This document shows positions 2,841-16,751 of a stretch of DNA of 22,921 nt, one piece after another. Source of the DNA: a virus; IMG/VR virus record IMGVR_UViG_3300034050_000227, positions 1 to 22,921 of that record; one strand, written 5' to 3'. Under the pieces are notes generated by a model. It saw nothing but the letters and a program-made list of their open reading frames with translations, searched no databases and had not been told where the DNA came from. Made by a program: the position numbers and the translations under genes. The stretch's first letter is position 1. The number at the start of each line of letters is the position of its first letter.

Positions 2841-5800
2841 ATGAGCACATTAGAAGAAGACGCACGAGCATTAGCACTGGCTAATAAAAACGTTGCAGGG
2901 TCTCCAGTAACCACTATAGATGGTAAGCCTGTAGATTCCTCTGTTAAAGTAATTGACCCTGATACTATTAGGGTTGGCAATACTTCTTATCGTCTTAGGG
3001 GATTTAATGCCCCTGAGACGGCTAAGTTACAAGGCGGTATATTTGTTCCTAATCAAGTAAAGAATGATACATCTCAAGAGGATGTTAATACTATTGCACA
3101 ATTAGGTGGGTATACTAATCTTGAAACAGAAGGTAGAGACCCCTACAATCGAGTATTAGCTCGACAAACTAATAAATTAGGTGAATCACTTGGTGACACA
3201 CTTACTGCATTAGGTTTGCAAAGAACTGATTTAAATAGTTCAGATGAGGCTGTACAAAGAAATGCTACATTAAACGCTATCTCAAGAGTAATACCTGAGC
3301 TAACAAATGCTGATCCTATGTTACGACTTGCTCGTGAACGTAAAGAAGAAGCCATTGCTAAAGCTGGTGGTAACCCTTTATATGTTCCAAAGATAAACGT
3401 ACATGATGAAAAGCTTTATGCTGCAATTAAGAATTCTACAGGTATTCCTGCTGTTAAAGCAGAGCAGGAAGAGATTGCTCGTCTTGAAAGAATACTTAAG
3501 ACTGAAGAACTTAAACCAGAAACTAGAACTAAGATACAACAACAATTACAAACATCTAAAGAACGTTTATACTTAGCCGCTACAACACCTGATTTAGTAG
3601 GTGGTGTTATGATTCGCCATGGTGATCGTACTATGATGAATCAAGCTTATGACCAGTTTAGTACTACACTTCATAGAGCATCTCTTGATATGTACAAGAG
3701 TCTTGGTGGTTTGTTACAAATGACTGGTGATAAGTCCGAATGGGAATGGCTATCGGATAAAGGTCAGACAATGGTTCGGTCTACTAAAGTAGAACAAGAA
3801 GAATTAGCTGACACATTAACATCTTTTAAAGACATTAGGACTAATGATCCTTGGTCAGCTATTAAAGATACAGCTACTTATTCAGGTAACCTTGTTGCAG
3901 GTACATTACCTAGTTTAGCTCTTATGCTAGCCTCTACTGCCGCAACTGGTGGTGCAAATATCCCTGCATTAATGGCTTATGGATTGTCTACTGTTCCTAC
4001 CTCTTTAGCTTATGCTGGTGGGTTTTATGCAGATCAACCTGACGATAAAAAGAATGCTAGCTTAGCAGTGTCATTAGGTATTGGATCTGCTGTGCTTGAT
4101 AGACTAGGTCTTGAAGGTATGCTTATTGGTGGTAATGTACTAACTAAAGCTGGTCGAGATGAAATTACAGATATATTAATTAAATCTGGCAAAGCAAGCA
4201 CACAACAAGAAGCTATGAGTTTAATTGAACAAGCTACTAAACGTGAGATTGTTGATATGTCCAAGGCTGGTGCCGCATTAGCTAAACAACAATACGCATC
4301 TACTGAAGCAGCACTAAGAGGATTAGCTAAAGTTACTACATCTACAGGTGTTGAAGCATTAACAGAATCATCTCAACAATACCTAGAGATGATGGCTACT
4401 ACTGGTGTATGGGATACTGATATCCAATATGAACGTAATTTCTATCAGAACCTTATGGATGCCGCTATTGGTGGTGGAACTATGGGCGGTATGTTTGGAA
4501 CAGCAGGACAACTAAAAACTAATGCTGAGTGGCAGTCATTAGCAAATGCTCGTAGTGAATTTAATAGAGAGTTAAGTGCTGAACAATCATTTAATAATGA
4601 TCAGGTATTAAGAGTAAAAGAAGGTGATCCTAACGCTTACAATAATACAGTGAGTATGGTTAGGTCTATTAAAGATGAACCTACAAACAAACCAATTGCT
4701 TCTCTTAAAAGCTTACCTGCTTTAGAAGGTGCTTGGAATGGTTTTAAATCTATTGTTACAGATCCTGGTCGTCTTGTTAGACAACTTGTTGATACTGCCA
4801 TACCTTCTATTGTTAACGAAGATGGTACATTTAAAACTAATTTAGCTTATCTTAAGTCTATTATTGGTGGTAAAGGTATTTTACCCGGAGATAATTACTC
4901 AGGCTTTAAACAACGTCTGCAAGGTAGTTTTGCGGGTAATACTGCTGAAGAATTATCTAGTAATCTTAAGACTGATACTGCAACAGCTAATAGGATGGTT
5001 AAAGAAGCATGGCAAAGCACATGGTCTAAGGGTCAAAAGTTACCAGCAACTTCACCTCAAAATATTGAGTTACAAAACTGGAAAGATAATCTAGATACAA
5101 CTCTTATTCGTATGAAGACAGAAGCTAATAGATTTAATACTACTAGTTCTGATTTAGATTCTTCTAATCCTTTATTTGAATCTTCTACAGTTCACCCTGC
5201 TACTCTTATGGCTAATCGTGAAGCTGTTATCAGTACAATGATAAGCAATGGTAGTAACAGACGCCAAGCTAATGAAGCAGTAAACAATATTGTTTCAGGT
5301 GATGTTGACCTAGCTAAAGCGGCTAGAGACTGGATGTCTCAGTATGGTGTGTTTGCTGACCCTAAACTTAATCATGTGTTTGAAACTAACTTGTTTAATA
5401 GCATGGAGAATCTTAAAGAAAGTGTTTCTCACAGAATTGCCAATGAAGTTTTTCTTGGTAGAGATGGTGCAGTATTAGCTAAATTGCTTAAAAAGGCTAA
5501 AGATAATAATGAGTTTGAGAATGATCAACAGTACATGGATACTGTTAAGAATGTAAGAGACTGGCATGATATTGTTACTGGTAATTATAATCCATTAACT
5601 AAGTATCCTAAGCTAGAAAAGATTATTGGTTGGGGTACTACTTTAACTATGTTAGCTTCTCTTGGTAAAGCAGCTATCAGCTCTCAAGCAGAAGCAGCTA
5701 TGGCTACTTTAGGTACTAATGGTGACCAAGTAAAAGATCAATTAAAGCTTTACTTTGATACTCTTAAAACAGAGCTTGCTAGTGATCTTAATGCTGGTGC

Positions 5801-7032: not shown

Positions 7033-10000
7033 ATGGCTACACAAACTAAAGTTGCACCTTTAGGCTCGCCAAGAACGGGCATCTCTGCTGAACAACTACT
7101 TGCCTTACAAGGTGTTTCTACTGATATAATGGGTCAAGTACCTGCACCAGTAGAAGATCCTAATAAGGTAGTACAGGCACAGGTAGAACAATATATGCCT
7201 CAGCCTTTGGAAGTACCACAACCTACTGGTTCTTCTGAGGCTATGCTTATGCAAGCACCTCCTATCAGGACTGCTGAAGATGTTGCTATCGCTTCTCGTT
7301 CTAGGTTTGGTGCTCGTGAAGTACAAGAACCTATGATGGATGCAATGGGTAATCCTGTTGTTGATCCTGAAACAGGTCTTCCCCAATTACGTACTATTAC
7401 CCCAACAGACTACAATGCTCAACTAGAAATGGAAAAGGCTTCCCAGTTAAATACTATGGAAGCCATGCAGGGTATGTCTGCTGATCCTTATGGTCAGTCT
7501 AAAACAGCTACTGCTTCATTGTTACAAGGTCAACAAGACACTATGTTCAATGCCAGTGCTCGTCAGATGTCTAAACAGAATATGTCTGAAGATGAGATTG
7601 ATAGGTACTCAGATAAGACTGCGACAGCACTAGCTAATATTGTATCACAAACAAATGATGCATTGTTTACTTCTAATGCACGTATCAAGAGTGAAATGGC
7701 TTCGGCTGATGGCTCACCAGTACTTATTGCGGCTGGCCTTAAAGCTGCAGCAGAAGATGGCTTTACTTCTCCAGAAGAATTAGCTGATTTTGGTCTTGTA
7801 TTTGGTGTATCATTAGCTAAGTCTGCTACACAAGGTAAGGTAGAAAAGGGCGATAAAGAAGGCACAGGTCGAGTTATCTCTGATTCAGGATCAGCTATTG
7901 ATGATGCAACTTATATGCTTGACTTTATTAATTCTGTTAAACACTTTGCTACTAATGGTTTAAATCGTATTGGTAAAAAGGTATCACCTAAAGCTATCAA
8001 TGCAATGTCTAAAGCTATTGTTCAAGATGCTATTGATCGTGGTGCTATTAAAGTATTCCACGTTAATGATCGACCAGTAGTTCAAATGAGTTCTGATCTT
8101 AAAGACATTGCTCGTGACTTACAAACTGCATCAGAAGCTCTTGTAGGTGACTACAGTAGACGTAAGTCTAGCACTACACCTAACCGTAGTGGTGCTTCAT
8201 TTGCGGCTAACCGACAACAACTTACTAAGAGATCTATACGTAAACCGGGTCTTGTAATGGATGCGGCTGAAGCTACTAAAGATATTCTTGGTTCTATTGG
8301 CTTAATGTTTAATGTTAAAGATGTTCAGTATAAAGAGATTGAGTTTGGTTTAATTACATTAGATCAATACTTAGATAAAGATGAACAAGGCAAAATTAGA
8401 TGGAGTAACCATTGGGCTGCTAAACGTAACGGTGTTAGCGAAAAAGATTTCATTGCGGCTAAATTAAAAACTAGACCCAAAAAAGACTTTGATGCATCAA
8501 ATGAAAATGATGTACAACAGTTTGAAGCTCAACAAGAAAGACAAGCAACAGAAGTAATTAATAATAAACTTAAGACTCTTGAGTTTGATATTATGAATGC
8601 TAAGAATGCTCCGGGTATTCGTTACTCAGAGTGGATTCACAGTTTGTCTAATCAACGTTTCTTTCCCAACAGTTATGATACTGATTACATGGGTTCTAAG
8701 AATGGTATTAGGGATATGATTGGATTTGCATCTAAAGATTATGTCACTGGTGACAAACTTTTTGATGATAAGAAAATAGAACAACTTAAACAAACAGCTG
8801 TTAAAATCCTTCGTATGCCTGGAGAACAACAACACAAAGCTTTGGAGGCATTAAGCCCTTCTGACCGTGGTGCTATTGGTACTATGCTTAATAGTGTTAT
8901 TTATTTCTTCTCTGCTGTTGATGGCTCTGATCCTAACATTGTTAAACAATCTCCAGCAAATATTGTTGTTAAATATAATTCAAATATTGGTAATAAACTT
9001 GCAGAGTTAGGTAAAGACTTTGAACAATTCTTAGTTGACCCTGAAAATGCAACAGACAATATTCAATCTCTTCTTGCGGGTATGGAGAAGGGTGAGGCTA
9101 TGGGTGCTAAGAATCTTTGGACTGATATGTTTAATCTGAAGACTAATTTTGATAACCCTGCTACTGCTCGTGTTCATGTACCATTAACCCATCATTCATT
9201 TGATGACGGTAATCAGAATGGTATTTTCTTACAAGCTCTTTTCTTTGGTAGCCCTGATAATGCAGTACGATTAGGTACGTTTAACCCTTCCTTAGATGAC
9301 ATGCGTGAATACGCTATGAATACTATGGTAGCTAATCTTGAGCAGATGCTTAAGGATCGTCCCGAAGCTAATTCAGCTTGGATGAATTTCTTTAAGTCTC
9401 TTAAGGATGACATGGGTAAATCAGAGATTGCTAAAGAATTCTTTAAGAAACCTTTGATGCAAAATGCTTATGGTAAAGATGCATCTATGTTTAAAGAAAT
9501 GATGGTTGAATTACTTGCTGATTCATTTCAAGATAAGGCTGCTGAGTATTTACTCAATAGTCCTGCTTATAGTAATGATTTAGAGAAAGCCGCAAGTGAT
9601 CTTAATGATGCACTTGAATCTACACTCCGTGAAGTAATTAACTCTAAGTCAACTCAGGTTCTTAAAGATATTGGTAGGTATACATCTATTCTTAATACAA
9701 CTGTTATGATGCCGGGTATTACTGGTGATACCTATTTGCTAACACCTGTAGAAGTAACCCCTGTTAATAAAGCAAATGATACTGGAGAAGTGTTACCTGT
9801 TAAGCTTAAAGATGGTTCAACAGTAATGGTTAAGTATAAGTCTTATGAGACAGATACATTCATTAATTCTGCTGGACAGTCTGTAGAGATTGAGTCAACT
9901 CAGATGGGTGCTAGTCCTGCTGCAACTAAAGGTGTTCAGTTATTCTTTGATACTCGTACTAAGAAGTATGATGCGTTTAATAATGCTATTGGTACAAGTC

Positions 10001-10818
10001 AAGCACGACAAATGGTTGTGATGCCTATTCAATCTATTGACGGTGACTTAGTTAAAGCTACTACGTTGTTTGTTAACAAAGAAAAGAAGATGCCAACACC
10101 TGCATTGTGGGTTCATGACTCTATTATTTCTTCTGCTGGTGGTTCTTTGATTTATCGTAATGCTTATAACAACATTTCTATTCCTCAAGCTATCCCACAG
10201 ATTGCTAAGTTTGGAGATAAGTTTGCTAAGGTTATTAATGATGCTGAACAAGCAGAGTTTAACCGTGTTATGGATATAAGGCGTCCTGTAGGTATTGGTG
10301 ATAAGGGTGACTACCCTGCTCTTGGTGCTTACTTAGATGAACAGTATGATCGTATTCAGGATGATGGTGCTTACAAAGAACTATTCTTGAGTCGTAAATA
10401 TAATTCACAGGAAGCATGGTTAAAGTATCAACAACGTGTTAGTCAAATGCTTAAAGAAGCAGAGGCTAATGGGTGGCGAGCACCAGGATCTATACCTGAT
10501 ACTGATAGTATGGGTGGAGAACACATTAGACAACACCTTGCTGTTACACCTAGCCAATTTAAAAAGCTTGCTTTGTTAACAAAAGAAATGTTAAAGCTTA
10601 GTGGACCTGCTAACAGGTTAGATTCATGGGTACGTAACTTTAGTAATAACGTTAATAACACTGCATCTATGCTTATGACTGCGGCTAAGAAAGAAGGCAT
10701 TGGACAAATGACTTATGGTGCTACTGGCTCTCGTGCTAATATTAATAAATCAAAAGACATATATAATAAAACTGAAGATGAACGTACATTAGCATTCATT
10801 AAGAAGTATGAAGATTAA
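7033..10818 (+). CDS. Probable virion-packaged single-subunit RNA polymerase (N4 vRNAP-like logic)
   Basis: This 1261-residue protein starts 4 bases after the upstream stop, with an AAGGA ribosome site. It carries the single-subunit RNA polymerase motifs in order. A degenerate T/DxxGR motif is SNQRFF (Arg542). Motif A is PLTHHSFDDGNQNGI, with Asp725 aligning to T7 Asp537. Motif B is KKPLMQNAYG, with Lys805 and Tyr813 spaced exactly like T7 Lys631 and Tyr639. MPIQSIDG near 1000 resembles the T7 APNFVHSQDG block. Motif C is ALWVHDSI, with Asp1029 aligning to T7 Asp812. The N-terminal 350 or so residues are unrelated to T7 RNA polymerase and look like a virion-protein extension. It is the last gene of the ejection cluster, while the replication arm carries a different 733-residue RNA polymerase. 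By analogy with N4 it could be injected with the DNA to transcribe early genes. The polymerase fold is well supported; packaging is inferred from gene order. Confidence 0.82.
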   Translation: MATQTKVAPLGSPRTGISAEQLLALQGVSTDIMGQVPAPVEDPNKVVQAQVEQYMPQPLEVPQPTGSSEAMLMQAPPIRTAEDVAIASRSRFGAREVQEPMMDAMGNPVVDPETGLPQLRTITPTDYNAQLEMEKASQLNTMEAMQGMSADPYGQSKTATASLLQGQQDTMFNASARQMSKQNMSEDEIDRYSDKTATALANIVSQTNDALFTSNARIKSEMASADGSPVLIAAGLKAAAEDGFTSPEELADFGLVFGVSLAKSATQGKVEKGDKEGTGRVISDSGSAIDDATYMLDFINSVKHFATNGLNRIGKKVSPKAINAMSKAIVQDAIDRGAIKVFHVNDRPVVQMSSDLKDIARDLQTASEALVGDYSRRKSSTTPNRSGASFAANRQQLTKRSIRKPGLVMDAAEATKDILGSIGLMFNVKDVQYKEIEFGLITLDQYLDKDEQGKIRWSNHWAAKRNGVSEKDFIAAKLKTRPKKDFDASNENDVQQFEAQQERQATEVINNKLKTLEFDIMNAKNAPGIRYSEWIHSLSNQRFFPNSYDTDYMGSKNGIRDMIGFASKDYVTGDKLFDDKKIEQLKQTAVKILRMPGEQQHKALEALSPSDRGAIGTMLNSVIYFFSAVDGSDPNIVKQSPANIVVKYNSNIGNKLAELGKDFEQFLVDPENATDNIQSLLAGMEKGEAMGAKNLWTDMFNLKTNFDNPATARVHVPLTHHSFDDGNQNGIFLQALFFGSPDNAVRLGTFNPSLDDMREYAMNTMVANLEQMLKDRPEANSAWMNFFKSLKDDMGKSEIAKEFFKKPLMQNAYGKDASMFKEMMVELLADSFQDKAAEYLLNSPAYSNDLEKAASDLNDALESTLREVINSKSTQVLKDIGRYTSILNTTVMMPGITGDTYLLTPVEVTPVNKANDTGEVLPVKLKDGSTVMVKYKSYETDTFINSAGQSVEIESTQMGASPAATKGVQLFFDTRTKKYDAFNNAIGTSQARQMVVMPIQSIDGDLVKATTLFVNKEKKMPTPALWVHDSIISSAGGSLIYRNAYNNISIPQAIPQIAKFGDKFAKVINDAEQAEFNRVMDIRRPVGIGDKGDYPALGAYLDEQYDRIQDDGAYKELFLSRKYNSQEAWLKYQQRVSQMLKEAEANGWRAPGSIPDTDSMGGEHIRQHLAVTPSQFKKLALLTKEMLKLSGPANRLDSWVRNFSNNVNNTASMLMTAAKKEGIGQMTYGATGSRANINKSKDIYNKTEDERTLAFIKKYED

Positions 10819-10831
10819 TATCTAAATAAAA

Positions 10832-10875
10832 AACCCCTACTAGGATTATTCCTAATAGGGGTTATTTTTTTTTTT
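10832..10875. terminator. Bidirectional rho-independent terminator between convergent arms
   Basis: The arms are aacccctactagg (10832-10844) and cctaataggggtt (10851-10863), around a 6-base attatt loop. They pair at 12 of 13 positions on the + strand; the C-A mismatch becomes a G-U pair in the - strand transcript. An 11-base T run (10865-10875) follows on the + side. The A-rich run just before the stem gives a U tract for - strand transcripts. It lies between the stops of the + strand polymerase gene and the - strand 84-residue gene, so it should end transcription from both arms. Confidence 0.93.
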
Positions 10876-11128
10876 AACTATATTCTTTTACTTGTGCACG
10901 AGCTTCACCAGCTAACTGATCAGCCATAGTGAGAGCACTATTACTATCCATACCACGGTTAATGTAAGCGTCATAATTTTCTTTGTGCATAGCTTTAATA
11001 GCAGCCTCATTAATCTGAGGAGTGTTAGCTAAACTAGGGTCAAGACCAAGTGTAGAGCATACATCTTGATCTGTTGTTTGAGTATCACCACGAAGGGCAA
11101 AGATATTATAATGTTTTAATTCATTCAT
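10874..11128 (-). CDS. 84-residue protein of unknown function
   Basis: This is the last gene of the - strand arm, and its stop codon overlaps the T run of the terminator. The ATG overlaps the stop of the Dps-like gene as ATGA, so translation is probably coupled. The protein is soluble and mostly helical in appearance, with a segment around ICSTLGLDP-type sequence (DVCSTLGLDPSLANTPQIN) and a C-terminal half rich in Ala, Met and Asp (ALTMADQLAGEARAQV). I do not recognise a family or catalytic motif. Genuine coding is supported by the tight overlap, the position in the operon and the terminator directly after it. Confidence 0.75.
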   Translation of the reverse strand: MNELKHYNIFALRGDTQTTDQDVCSTLGLDPSLANTPQINEAAIKAMHKENYDAYINRGMDSNSALTMADQLAGEARAQVKEYS

Positions 11129-11601
11129 TTAAAACTCTTTCCAAGTGTTGCTTTAACTTTCCAATTCAATTTAGATAAGTCTTTAATATAATCGCCAATT
11201 AATGTAGCCAAACCACCTTGACTGCTGAGGTCAGCATCATCATACAATGTTTGTGAATACTCAATTAGGCAATCAAAGTCTTTGTTTAACCATGTAAACA
11301 TTTCTTTACTTGTCTTTTGTGGGCTATCACATTCAATAATTTCAGTCATCTTTAAGACTTCTTTAAGAGAGCATGGTACTGCCTTATCCATTTGACGGAT
11401 CTGTTCTCCAAGCATATCATGTTGTGCCCACAAGAAATCATAGATCTCTTCTAGTAGTGCATGATCTTGAGCAAACATTGGACCTTCTACATTGAAGTGG
11501 TATCCATGAGACTTGTAGTATGTTACAAAGTTATCAGCATAAAGTTGAGTAAGTTGTGTAATCAAACTATTACTCTTTGGTTGGGGTGGTGTCATTGCCA
11601 T
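11125..11601 (-). CDS. dps: Dps-type miniferritin (ferroxidase/DNA-protection protein)
   Basis: This is a 158-residue protein, close to the usual Dps length. The ATG at 11601 was chosen because AAGGA lies 8 bases before it; the frame also runs up to a TTG at 11649, which has no ribosome site. The N-terminal helix and turn FVTYYKSHGYHFNVEGPMF matches the Dps signature. All ferroxidase ligand positions are filled with exact spacing: His35, His47, Glu51 (Asp67 in E. coli Dps), Asp62 and Glu66, equivalent to E. coli His51, His63, Asp67, Asp78 and Glu82. The C-terminal helix KDLSKLNWKVKATL also fits. In the family, 12 subunits form a shell that oxidises and stores iron using peroxide, often protecting DNA. 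The N-terminus has few lysines, so DNA binding is uncertain. It sits among small unknown genes at the end of the operon. Shielding phage or host DNA from oxidative damage is an inference. Confidence 0.88.
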   Translation of the reverse strand: MAMTPPQPKSNSLITQLTQLYADNFVTYYKSHGYHFNVEGPMFAQDHALLEEIYDFLWAQHDMLGEQIRQMDKAVPCSLKEVLKMTEIIECDSPQKTSKEMFTWLNKDFDCLIEYSQTLYDDADLSSQGGLATLIGDYIKDLSKLNWKVKATLGKSFK

Positions 11602-11716
11602 CTTGTTTTTCCTTTTCTTTTTCCTGACCTTCAGGAGGTTTCTTGCCAAAGATCAAGTCATAATTGCTTTGGAATTTGTTTTCATCGGTTGGTCTACGAC
11701 CACTACCTTTACCCAT
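11570..11716 (-). CDS. 48-residue protein with SGRRP motif
   Basis: The ATG at 11716 overlaps the stop of the preceding gene (ATGGGTAA) and has AAAGG 5 bases upstream. A GTG at 11761 would extend it by 15 residues inside that gene and is less likely. The N-terminus MGKGSGRRPTDENKF followed by YDLIFGKK resembles a short protein type seen in many T7-like and marine podoviruses, whose function I do not know. The C-terminal half is a low-complexity charged tail rich in Lys, Glu and Gln. Its last 32 bases overlap the start of the Dps-like gene in another frame. Confidence 0.75.
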   Translation of the reverse strand: MGKGSGRRPTDENKFQSNYDLIFGKKPPEGQEKEKEKQDGNDTTPTKE

Positions 11717-12386: not shown

Positions 12387-12641
12387 TTAGGTACCTGCTA
12401 AGAAAGGTTTAACCTTAGTAGGTGTAAACCCTACAGAAGTTCTGAGTACCTGATCATTGTCATCAACCATAATCATGGTAGGTACTGTACGAACCCCATA
12501 GTAGGATACTGTATCTGTATTGTTTTCAATAGGCATATTGACAAGCTCTATTTCAGGGTATTCCAACAAGGCTTCTGCTAGGAATGCATCTAATTGTTTA
12601 CATGGTTGGCACCATGCTGCAGAGAATTTAAGTAGTTTCAA
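12387..12641 (-). CDS. Thioredoxin-like redox protein
   Basis: This is an 84-residue thioredoxin fold with the active site WCQPC (Gly replaced by Gln compared with the usual WCGPC) and the cis-proline segment RTVPTMIMVD. There is no ATG. The TTG at 12641 shares TTGA with the stop of the reductase gene and gives the typical start KLLKFSAAWC; a GTG at 12650 is the alternative. The arrangement implies translational coupling to the ribonucleotide reductase, whose C-terminal cysteine pair needs a reductant of this type. In T7, host thioredoxin is also the DNA polymerase processivity factor, so this protein might serve the phage polymerase too. It is shorter than bacterial thioredoxin (about 108 residues), as is usual for phage versions. 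Confidence 0.9.
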   Translation of the reverse strand: MKLLKFSAAWCQPCKQLDAFLAEALLEYPEIELVNMPIENNTDTVSYYGVRTVPTMIMVDDNDQVLRTSVGFTPTKVKPFLAGT

Positions 12642-14509
12642 ATCTCGCACCCACCAGCTGTACAAGCAAGTGCTTGAGCACCTTCTACATTATCACGGTC
12701 TTCAGAGAAGAGAGACCAATTAATAACAGGCATATTCATTTCCATAAATTGTTCTTTGTTAATGTCTTCATAAGGAGCTTGGCGATATGTACCACCATCA
12801 TCTGGTAGGAAAGAGATACCAGTACATTCATCAAAGTGTTCATATACCCATGCACCTACTTCAAGCCACTCATGATCTTTAACTGATATAGTTACTGAAG
12901 GCTTATGCTCACACCAGTAGCGTTGGTATGCCAACCAGATATTAAGGTGTTCAATAGCATTGATATCCTTACGGGTAAATCCTGGTGAGTATTGTGGGAA
13001 ACTAAATACAGCTGTCTGGTCTGGCTTCATAACACAGTCTTCATGAGGCACACCTTGATCAATCAAGAATTGAGTCAATGGGTCTTTCTTATCCTGACGA
13101 ATACGTCTGATATAGTATGGTGCATGACCAGCATGAATACCGCTGGATGTCTGTGTAAGTTGTGACACAGTACCTTCAGGCTTAACACAAGTAATAGCGG
13201 CTGACTCAGGAACACCTAAGATGGATGCCCACTCTTTGTTAGTCTCACGGGCTACATCACGGAGTTGTTCAAGAACATCACGTAGACTATGACTTGTGCT
13301 GCTACCACGAAGAATGTGGTTGTCAAGAATACCAGTCATTGATACACCCAAGAGACGTTCTTGTTCTGTATTCTTTTTCCAGATGTCACGAAGGTAAGGG
13401 AAGTCAGTCAGTGTAGACTGCATAGTACCCATAATAGTAGCTAAGCGAACTTTAGTTTTAAGAGATGCAAGAGTATCATCAGGAGACACAACAATAGTAG
13501 ACAAGTTACAGAATTGATATGGCTTAAGAATAATCTCTGAGCATGGGTTAGTACCGTAGTCAGTGCTGATATCTCTACGACCCCACTTAGCGGCTTGCTT
13601 TTGTGATGCTTCACGATTGAAGATACCACGTTCACCTGAGTGACTGTTGTAGATATCTAACCATTCCTTCATGAACTCACCAATAGAAGGTTTACTGTTG
13701 TACACTGCTGAGTTATTAGCTAATGCACGTTCACCATGTTGTTCCCACCAAGTACCTGTCTTAGCTGTTGCATGGTCATAGTCACCTAAGTCACCAAGGG
13801 AAATCATAGCTGATCTACGTACACCACCTACAACAACTACTTCACCGATCTTACACATGATATCGTGTGCTTCAATAGACTTAAGTTTGCGACCTGATGC
13901 GGCTTTAAACTTATCTACTGTATACTGGAACAAGTCAATCAGTGGACCAGGACCCGAGGCACGACCACCAAAGGTTTTAAGGGGAGCACCTGCTGGGCGC
14001 ACTAAGGATACATCCCACGATGGAATAAAACCTTGGTACAAGTTATCAATCAACATCTTATATGCTTGGCACCAGCCTTCTTTAGAGTCTGCTACTACAA
14101 GTGTAGCTCCAGATTCAAAACTAGAGGGTACAGTAGGTAACTGGTTAACATATTGCTGTTCACATGAAAAGCCTACACCAGTACCACACAATAAGATATA
14201 CATAGCTTCATCAAAACAACGTTGATTATCTACAGGAAGGTAGCTACAGTTATATGCGGCTACGTGTGTACGCTTAAGAGCTTCACCAGCAGTCATAACA
14301 GACCGCATAGATGGGAGTACTGACAAGTTATTAATGCTTGTTCCTAAGATATCCCAAATAGTATCTTGGGTATTGATCTTATCTTTAAGTTGTTCCTTAA
14401 AGAAATCTACCCATCGAGTAGAGGTTTCATCCCAGTTCTCTCTACGTTTTTGCTCAGGTAGGTATCGAGCGTATCTTGATTTTGCAATGAGTTGTTGATA
14501 AGAGTTCAT
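12638..14509 (-). CDS. nrdJ: Class II (adenosylcobalamin-dependent) ribonucleotide reductase, monomeric type
   Basis: This 623-residue enzyme turns ribonucleotides into deoxyribonucleotides for DNA synthesis. It matches the monomeric B12-dependent triphosphate reductase typified by Lactobacillus leichmannii. The opening SRYARYLPEQKRRENWDET is characteristic. Cys88 (AAYNCSYLP) and Cys334 (YQFCNLS) form the likely active-site redox pair. NPCSEI supplies Cys323 (thiyl radical) and Glu325, with the 11-residue gap to Cys334 exactly as in the family. The C-terminus CTAGGCEI gives the shuttle pair Cys616/Cys621. No class I small subunit or class III activase is seen nearby. AAAAGGA lies just before the ATG. 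A 40-base gap separates it from the RNA polymerase gene, and the thioredoxin gene follows with a 4-base overlap. It is shorter than the L. leichmannii protein (about 739 residues). Confidence 0.95.
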   Translation of the reverse strand: MNSYQQLIAKSRYARYLPEQKRRENWDETSTRWVDFFKEQLKDKINTQDTIWDILGTSINNLSVLPSMRSVMTAGEALKRTHVAAYNCSYLPVDNQRCFDEAMYILLCGTGVGFSCEQQYVNQLPTVPSSFESGATLVVADSKEGWCQAYKMLIDNLYQGFIPSWDVSLVRPAGAPLKTFGGRASGPGPLIDLFQYTVDKFKAASGRKLKSIEAHDIMCKIGEVVVVGGVRRSAMISLGDLGDYDHATAKTGTWWEQHGERALANNSAVYNSKPSIGEFMKEWLDIYNSHSGERGIFNREASQKQAAKWGRRDISTDYGTNPCSEIILKPYQFCNLSTIVVSPDDTLASLKTKVRLATIMGTMQSTLTDFPYLRDIWKKNTEQERLLGVSMTGILDNHILRGSSTSHSLRDVLEQLRDVARETNKEWASILGVPESAAITCVKPEGTVSQLTQTSSGIHAGHAPYYIRRIRQDKKDPLTQFLIDQGVPHEDCVMKPDQTAVFSFPQYSPGFTRKDINAIEHLNIWLAYQRYWCEHKPSVTISVKDHEWLEVGAWVYEHFDECTGISFLPDDGGTYRQAPYEDINKEQFMEMNMPVINWSLFSEDRDNVEGAQALACTAGGCEI

Positions 14510-14549: not shown

Positions 14550-16751
14550 CTAGCAGAAGAAGTATTTAGAGTCCATAACTTCATTAAGAACTAGGCTACC
14601 TAGTTCTGGTTGATTGAACGTGAAGGTATCCTTATTATCCATAAGGTTATCTTGAAGTATGTTAAAGAAGTTTTCTACATCATACTGTGCTATGAATGTC
14701 ATCTTAGTTACTTCTTGTAGGAAATCAACTTCATCCGCATGTGTACTGAAGCTATCATGGACTGCTCCAAAAGAACCGTTAAAGCTGACGATAGTATTTG
14801 CCATGTGAGCAGCGTCATATGAGTGAACAACGTTAGGGCTGATACCAGAAGCAAAGGAACGTCTACAAGGCACACGTTCACCAGTCTCTTTGTTAAGTAC
14901 GTCAACCTTAATAACGTGCATGACCCTTCCGTCTTTATTTCCTTGAATACCTTTGATAGTTCCTCTTTGTTTCCGTTCATGCTGGAGGTAAGCCTTATAT
15001 ACCACTGGGAACCCCGAGGGTGTTGTCCATGTAAGGAGGTTTCTTCCTGAGTTGAGTTCATGTTCTGCAATCTTCTGTAAATACTTGGTTGTCTTAAGTG
15101 GTCCTGCACAGACTGTATTAATAGCCTTGATTAAGTTACCTGCTAGTACGTCACACTGGTCTTCAGTGATGTTGTATTTAACAGTATAACCTTCTACGTG
15201 ACAGTCTTCGTACATGTTCTTTGCTATACGCATCTTACCTGCACTATATGCACGAGTCATTGAGCCTCTCTTAGCTATACCTTTTCTGATATGTTTCATA
15301 GGCATATCTTTGATCTCAAAGTACTCAGGCATAATACCAATAAGTTCTTTGGCAACAGCTACGTAGAAGTCTTTCTGGATAGGTGTAGGAACAAGTGACA
15401 CCAGCGTACCAGCTTGTTTGTCTTTAGACATAGCCGCTAAGTGTTGCCATCCGTTATTACTACCATCGATAGGGATAGGTAGTCCAGACATGAACTCTTT
15501 ACCTTCCATTTTAGATCTCTTGTATCCTAGTAACTCATTACAACAAGCTAAAAAGCTATAAGACTTTTCAGCATCAGTATGTATAGTCTTAGTACGAGCT
15601 ACATCATAAATAAACTCAATGTTGTTATCTACCCATGCAACTCTATCTTCAAGAGTCATCTTGTCTACTGATATAGTATCAAGACCTTCACCCTCAAGAT
15701 AAGCTCTATAGTCTGTCTTAAAGTACTTAGGTATATCACTGATGATAAAAGACTTATTAAAGCAAGCTGCTGTATGTACCTTGATCCAGAATAAACCTCT
15801 CTCAGTAACCTTCTTTTTGTTAGCAAACATAAACAAGCTACGAGCTAAATCACTACCTTGGAACTCTAAGAATGATTCTGCATAATATACTCTACCTCGG
15901 TAGTCACAAGAGACTTCCTGAAAGAAAGTTCTTTCACCAATCATCTCAGCTTTCTTAAGCACTTGCATGTACTCAAAGTATTTACTCATCATACGTTGTA
16001 GCTTAGGATCTTTCTTACCAAGGAACTTAGTACCATCTGTATGAGATAGTTTCTTAGGTAGCTCTAGGTTTTCATGGTGTATATTGTATTCTCTTACAAC
16101 ACCATCTTCATCGATCAACTCAAGGATTTCTTTAGGAGTCTGTGCTTGCATAGCATTTAACACTGGTATGTTAAGCTTCCAAGACTGCTGACGAAGGGTC
16201 TCAAGGGATCTTACAAAGGTTTTATTAAGGTTATCATGGAATAGCTTAGAGTTAGTCCAGCCCTTAATAAAAGGTTCTTTAGTTAATGGGCTATAGAGAC
16301 CCATGATAGGTAACAAAGGTTCAAACGATGTACCAATTAATGTTGGCTTAATATCATCTGCTTGATTAACAATACGTACCATATAGGGAGCTTTGTATCC
16401 TGCATATTCCCTGAAGATGTCAATCAGTCCATCTTGAAGGAACGTTTCGAGAAGAAGATCTCCAAGCGATAGAGTTGACTTGATATCAAGTTCGTCAGCT
16501 CCAATAGCTCTTGCAATTCTTTTTCCGATAAGGTCAGAAGCAAAGGTGAGTTTAACAGAGGCGCTATGCGTTGCGTTCTTGTTACGAATGCAGTATCTAA
16601 GGAGGGTATCCCAAGACTCGTTGATAAATCTTTCAAGTTCATATTCCCATGTTGGGTAGTGTGCTAGAAGGCGAGCACCCTCATTGTAGATCTTATCTGA
16701 GTTGGGGACAACCTTCGATACACGTTCAGTAAGATAATTTAATGGATTCAT
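14550..16751 (-). CDS. T7-like single-subunit RNA polymerase (733 residues)
   Basis: This DNA-dependent RNA polymerase of the T7/mitochondrial family shows all core motifs: CDYRGRVYY (DxxGR, Arg287), motif A IDGSNNGWQHLAAM (Asp429), motif B KRGSMTRAYSAG (Lys494, Tyr502), the SPNVVHSYDAAH block and motif C VHDSF (Asp666). T7 has YG after motif B's Tyr; here it is YS. The C-terminus DSKYFFC is aromatic like the T7 foot. At 733 residues against 883, most of the loss is in the N-terminal promoter-binding region. That makes it closer in size to the combined two-part N4 RNA polymerase II. Its ATG follows the primase-helicase stop directly (TAAATG) with no clear ribosome site, suggesting re-initiation. 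It probably transcribes middle or late phage genes; its promoters were not identified. Confidence 0.96.
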   Translation of the reverse strand: MNPLNYLTERVSKVVPNSDKIYNEGARLLAHYPTWEYELERFINESWDTLLRYCIRNKNATHSASVKLTFASDLIGKRIARAIGADELDIKSTLSLGDLLLETFLQDGLIDIFREYAGYKAPYMVRIVNQADDIKPTLIGTSFEPLLPIMGLYSPLTKEPFIKGWTNSKLFHDNLNKTFVRSLETLRQQSWKLNIPVLNAMQAQTPKEILELIDEDGVVREYNIHHENLELPKKLSHTDGTKFLGKKDPKLQRMMSKYFEYMQVLKKAEMIGERTFFQEVSCDYRGRVYYAESFLEFQGSDLARSLFMFANKKKVTERGLFWIKVHTAACFNKSFIISDIPKYFKTDYRAYLEGEGLDTISVDKMTLEDRVAWVDNNIEFIYDVARTKTIHTDAEKSYSFLACCNELLGYKRSKMEGKEFMSGLPIPIDGSNNGWQHLAAMSKDKQAGTLVSLVPTPIQKDFYVAVAKELIGIMPEYFEIKDMPMKHIRKGIAKRGSMTRAYSAGKMRIAKNMYEDCHVEGYTVKYNITEDQCDVLAGNLIKAINTVCAGPLKTTKYLQKIAEHELNSGRNLLTWTTPSGFPVVYKAYLQHERKQRGTIKGIQGNKDGRVMHVIKVDVLNKETGERVPCRRSFASGISPNVVHSYDAAHMANTIVSFNGSFGAVHDSFSTHADEVDFLQEVTKMTFIAQYDVENFFNILQDNLMDNKDTFTFNQPELGSLVLNEVMDSKYFFC

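Follow-up and report, generated by a model that had tools for sequence, protein, structure and literature searches.

A Dps-type miniferritin with an intact-looking ferroxidase site at the end of the replication block of an uncultured phage clade

Why a phage would carry a gene for a miniferritin, and whether the iron site of the encoded protein is still fit to work, are the questions raised by the dps locus of a 22.9-kb virus fragment (IMG/VR record IMGVR_UViG_3300034050_000227, positions 1 to 22,921; this whole stretch is called the window). The gene lies on the minus strand, from an ATG at 11601 to 11125 with the stop codon included, and encodes 158 amino acids. Dps is a small iron-oxidising protein with which bacteria guard their DNA. 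A preliminary description, made from the letters alone, had named the product a Dps miniferritin, and the search against protein families led to the same identity. The curated score of Pfam Ferritin (PF00210) was passed with E = 2e-12 and 47.7 bits against a cut-off of 24.5, and PHROG 3636 was matched with E = 1.2e-26, residues 9-154 lying on positions 4-148 of the 149 of the profile. The best PDB match by sequence was TpF1 (2fjc, E = 6e-14), and further matches were the Dps of V. cholerae (9e-13) and NapA (2e-12). The scores against three NCBIfam Dps equivalogs, NF041388, NF006975 and NF052461, were 27.3, 19 and 13.7 bits, far under the respective cut-offs of 170, 114 and 300, so the protein is a Dps placed outside those named subgroups.

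The AlphaFold2 monomer model of the phage protein (pLDDT 87.5, pTM 0.83) contained helices at residues 10-37, 43-70, 79-85, 98-125 and 129-155. This is a four-helix bundle in which the short helix 79-85 occupies the B-C loop and there is no fifth helix, that is, the Dps arrangement. When the model was compared by Foldseek and VIA-align, Dps proteins were ranked at the top, with Dps structures at Z of about 20-23.5; TpF1 was superimposed with Z 23.5 and rmsd 1.5 along 150 residues. The ranking of structures agreed with the profile search in pointing to a Dps-type miniferritin and not to another helical bundle.

In Dps proteins the ferroxidase site is built by two histidines and an acid of one subunit together with an Asp and a Glu of its mate. 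The five residues proposed earlier for this site were all found at the spacings claimed for them (12, 4, 11 and 4 residues): His35 (codon 11497..11499), His47 (11461..11463), Glu51 (11449..11451), Asp62 (11416..11418) and Glu66 (11404..11406), all on the minus strand. The pattern H-x11-H-x3-[DE]-x10-D-x3-E occurs a single time in the protein. In the Dps of Listeria the metal is coordinated by His31, Asp58 and Glu62 (PMC8389677), and by the alignment offset these are H35, D62 and E66 of the phage protein; the same offset places His47 and Glu51, the fifth ligand, at His43 and Asp47 of LiDps. H35, H47, D62 and E66 were invariant in the 44 distinct sequences of the clade, in 34 other viral Dps and in 30 bacterial Dps. 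Position 51 was much more labile: within the clade it was Glu in 15 sequences, Asn in 13, Gln in 7, Gly in 7 and Lys in 2, while Glu was present in 8/34 other viral Dps and in 27/30 of the sampled bacterial ones, and 17 changes between acid and non-acid were counted on the Dps tree. Thus five of five Dps-spaced residues are present in this protein and four of five are invariant in the clade. The ferroxidase residues of the phage Dps look intact, as the preliminary description had it, and selected, although E51, intact here, is no feature of the phage family, and in phages only the other four are equally constrained.

The clade has signatures of its own around this site. The replacement of the host Trp beside the first His by Phe, noticed before in this one protein, was confirmed as Phe36 in 39/44 clade sequences, against Trp in 29/30 sampled bacteria. 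Trp58 was considered as a stand-in for the lost Trp36 and rejected, since many other Dps likewise have an aromatic residue at position 58. His61 (11419..11421, minus strand), adjoining Asp62, was present in 44/44 clade sequences and in 0/64 elsewhere, and corresponds to one change on the Dps tree; Lys148 was found in 39 of the 44. Counting back from Trp147, the bacterial proteins had Asp at W-19 (30/30) and Glu at W-18 (21/30), a region that in Dps forms the lining of the threefold pore. The clade had at most one acid there in 44 sequences, mostly Tyr and Gly, and D137 (W-10) was retained in 42/44. From these residues we infer that the iron entrance of the clade Dps is changed, a view tempered by the fact that NapA too has Thr at the W-14 place, which in the PDB alignment is the position of Listeria Asp130, a residue described as part of the pore (PMC8389677). 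The loss of E51 in most relatives and the missing pore acids could result in slower or different iron handling. Carried further, the labile E51, the lost W-19 acid and the invariant His61 beside D62 would fit a cage that binds metal and is catalytically altered, for example with a mono-metal site or with another metal; however, this protein retains all five ligands, NapA shares the Thr at the place of Asp130, and we regard such a cage as highly improbable.

DNA binding by a Lys-rich tail is not universal among Dps proteins. In the phage Dps there is one Lys before helix A and a short C-terminus (KVKATLGKSFK), and the protein has a net charge of -7 and a pI of 5.0, in line with the weak tail noted previously. 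Given the net charge, DNA coating through a lysine tail is probably not part of its action.

The context of the gene is that of phage replication. On the minus strand the order is DNA polymerase, exonuclease, GIY-YIG endonuclease, primase-helicase, single-subunit phage RNA polymerase (14550..16751), class II ribonucleotide reductase and thioredoxin (12387..14509 together), small ORFs, dps and u84, so that dps and u84 end a block of genes that share one direction. One of the small ORFs (11570..11716, minus strand, beginning MGKGSGRRP) overlaps the start of dps in another frame and matched no Pfam or PHROG family. The 84-aa ORF u84 (10874..11128, minus strand) likewise had no Pfam or PHROG match; it follows dps in many relatives, and its start overlaps the dps stop in an ATGA, which suggests translational coupling of the two. 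Relatives of u84 occupy the corresponding position in other contigs, apparently also in L040, a contig which itself has no dps. After u84, between the convergent modules, there is an intrinsic terminator-like hairpin of 14 pairs (10832..10863, minus strand), and facing it a 1261-aa ORF on the plus strand (7033..10818), regarded as a virion protein because of where it lies and of its likeness to Roseobacter phage CRP-7. In the virion block, the N-terminus of a 1395-aa ORF (window 2841-3320) resembled a staphylococcal nuclease by eye, and this was rejected, as no Pfam match appeared even at E < 10. Within the window no tRNA genes, no evident phage-specific promoter repeats and no other iron or peroxide genes were identified. 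The long relatives are contigs of 59-64 kb, and the fragment comes from a phage of roughly 60 kb. The earlier wording "small lytic phage" was therefore inaccurate as to size; the nine long relatives checked, none of which showed a tyrosine integrase, do no more than suggest a lytic life style.

With this Dps protein as query 21 relatives were found, and by profile search at least 392 viral stretches encoded some Dps relative, 80 of which were kept. Purifying selection on the gene is strong: dN/dS was 0.02-0.17 for close dps pairs, and the window compared with L001 gave dN 0.016, dS 0.69 and dN/dS 0.023. When the RNA polymerase was used as query, which does not select for the presence of dps, the gene was found in 17/18 contigs spanning the junction (read by eye from the gene table, some near-identical contigs included), at a single conserved site that closes the replication block. 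The exception is L040, where the flanking small genes are present and dps is absent at the site. The alleles at this locus move. Over a stretch of more than 8 kb ending at the start of dps, L032 and L033 share about 98% identity; beyond it they are unrelated, and the dps and virion block of L032 match L106 and L108 at 87%; L014 and L086 have an RNA polymerase similarity of 1.0 and a Dps similarity of only 0.55. The locus often trades one Dps allele for another and seldom loses dps, and this ongoing replacement rather than loss indicates that the function is wanted.

Considering that the break between L032 and L033 falls at the dps start, dps moved there together with the virion block, and, once RNA polymerase had been corrected for, the Dps distances weakly followed those of the virion protein (partial r 0.28, 2/2000 permutations). 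Both observations would be expected if the cage served the virion or its DNA, by uptake into the head or a role in DNA packaging, with iron oxidation secondary or protecting packaged or injected DNA. In other phages the gene is in fact found among head genes. In L115:3086-3538, L134:5538-6230 and L135:1324-2055 it immediately follows a portal or portal-like gene, and in L115 and L135 it precedes scaffold-like or major head genes as well, in a slot that is often occupied by a prohead protease; in BFVD, Dps-like folds occur in proteins named prohead protease. L117:5569-7980 is an 804-aa ORF inside a head module with a Dps domain at 146-292 and a zeta-toxin-type kinase domain at 592-766, and this fusion also matches the PHROG annotated as minor head protein. 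The Dps of L135:1324-2055 carries a HiPIP-like iron-sulfur domain fused at its C-terminus (PF01355, with 23.0 bits and a cut-off of 22). On the other side, in this clade dps is a free gene whose transcription goes with the replication block and runs counter to the virion genes, from which it leads away; its linkage to them may reflect mere physical closeness, and Dps tracks RNA polymerase too (partial r 0.24, 115/2000 permutations). A service to the virion is for these reasons unlikely in our opinion. In a fuller version Dps would be linked to the virion or the head module in several unrelated phage lineages, and in this clade the cage, re-tuned by its labile fifth ligand, the new His61 and a different entry pore, would travel with the virion block on account of its work with the particle or its DNA. 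This seems to us slightly less plausible still. The presence of Dps in the head modules of other phages nevertheless raises the question of whether the protection of phage DNA would take place inside the cell or inside the particle.

The same anatomy would also suit a cage that buffers or withholds iron, storing it for the phage or denying it to the host instead of detoxifying it, and the demand for iron might be thought to differ with the ribonucleotide reductase, since a class I enzyme replaces class II in some relatives. The reductase of the window is of class II (B12-dependent), and dps occurs with both classes, so there is no visible link to iron demand; we find this explanation very doubtful. 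A tie of dps to the class of reductase was rejected on the same ground. As observed by eye, in L038, L041, L043 and L044 the class I reductase stands downstream of the RNA polymerase in place of class II and thioredoxin, represented by ORFs that resemble NrdA and NrdB and by a glutaredoxin-like tail.

We consider it fairly probable that the gene encodes a catalytically competent Dps whose ferroxidase cage would limit Fenton damage during phage replication, because sequence, fold, invariant ligands, strong purifying selection and conserved locus agree with this role. Under this proposal dps would be made during infection and the product would assemble into a 12-mer with inter-subunit sites; the 12-mer would oxidise Fe(II), preferably with H2O2, and hold the Fe(III) inside, and the replicating phage DNA, like whatever else loosely held iron attacks in the dying cell, would suffer less Fenton damage. 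The labile E51, the missing pore acids, the failure to identify another iron or peroxide gene in the window and the absence of dps in L040 speak against a competent Dps. Taken as a whole, the preliminary description stands as regards a phage-encoded Dps-type miniferritin with intact-looking ferroxidase residues, and has to be corrected in that the fifth residue is labile, the pore region differs from that of bacteria and the phage is not small. If the protein is active, members of an uncultured phage clade maintain a defence against iron and peroxide almost as a core gene while swapping its alleles, and iron or oxidative stress during infection would then be a constant source of selection for these phages.

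As to its origin, the tree placed the 44 clade sequences in one group (SH-aLRT 89), with bacterial and viral Dps largely apart. A recent capture from a host was not supported, given this separation and a scan of genome contigs that gave one bacterial relative, with 31% identity; the bacterial side of the tree was sampled from 398 genomes belonging to one phylum, chosen around a single Micavibrio match. An old viral lineage of Dps is likely on these grounds.

The closest isolate by RNA polymerase, CRP-7 (MK613349), is a distant relative, 31.6% identical in that protein. The order DNA polymerase-exonuclease-primase-RNA polymerase, followed by convergent large ORFs, is shared with it (PMC6918029), whereas no dps was found in the CRP-7 genome. 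In CRP-7 the class II ribonucleotide reductase (L023:35552-37245; 35552-38170 in the record) is annotated as a pair of ORFs separated by a hypothetical one, an arrangement that hints at an intron or a comparable insertion. By comparison with bacterial TpF1 (2fjc), V. cholerae Dps (3iq1) and NapA (3t9j/1ji4), the phage protein has the same fold, length, BC-loop helix and ferroxidase ligands at about 30% identity, and it differs in the Phe in place of Trp, His61, the lost W-18/W-19 acids, Lys148 and in being encoded by a phage. Our search of largely open-access literature for phage-encoded Dps or ferritin returned no directly relevant paper. Phage Dps are nonetheless already known from PHROGs, annotated phages and BFVD: those of PHROG 3636 (Synechococcus phage S-EIV1 and Aeromonas phages LAh_8 and LAh_9) and that of an uncultured Caudovirales in BFVD are likewise phage-encoded members of the same family with the same ligands. 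With the annotated phage Dps records the present protein shares about 25-30% identity, and it forms a separate lineage with its own signature and another gene context; what is new here is this lineage with its clade-specific changes.
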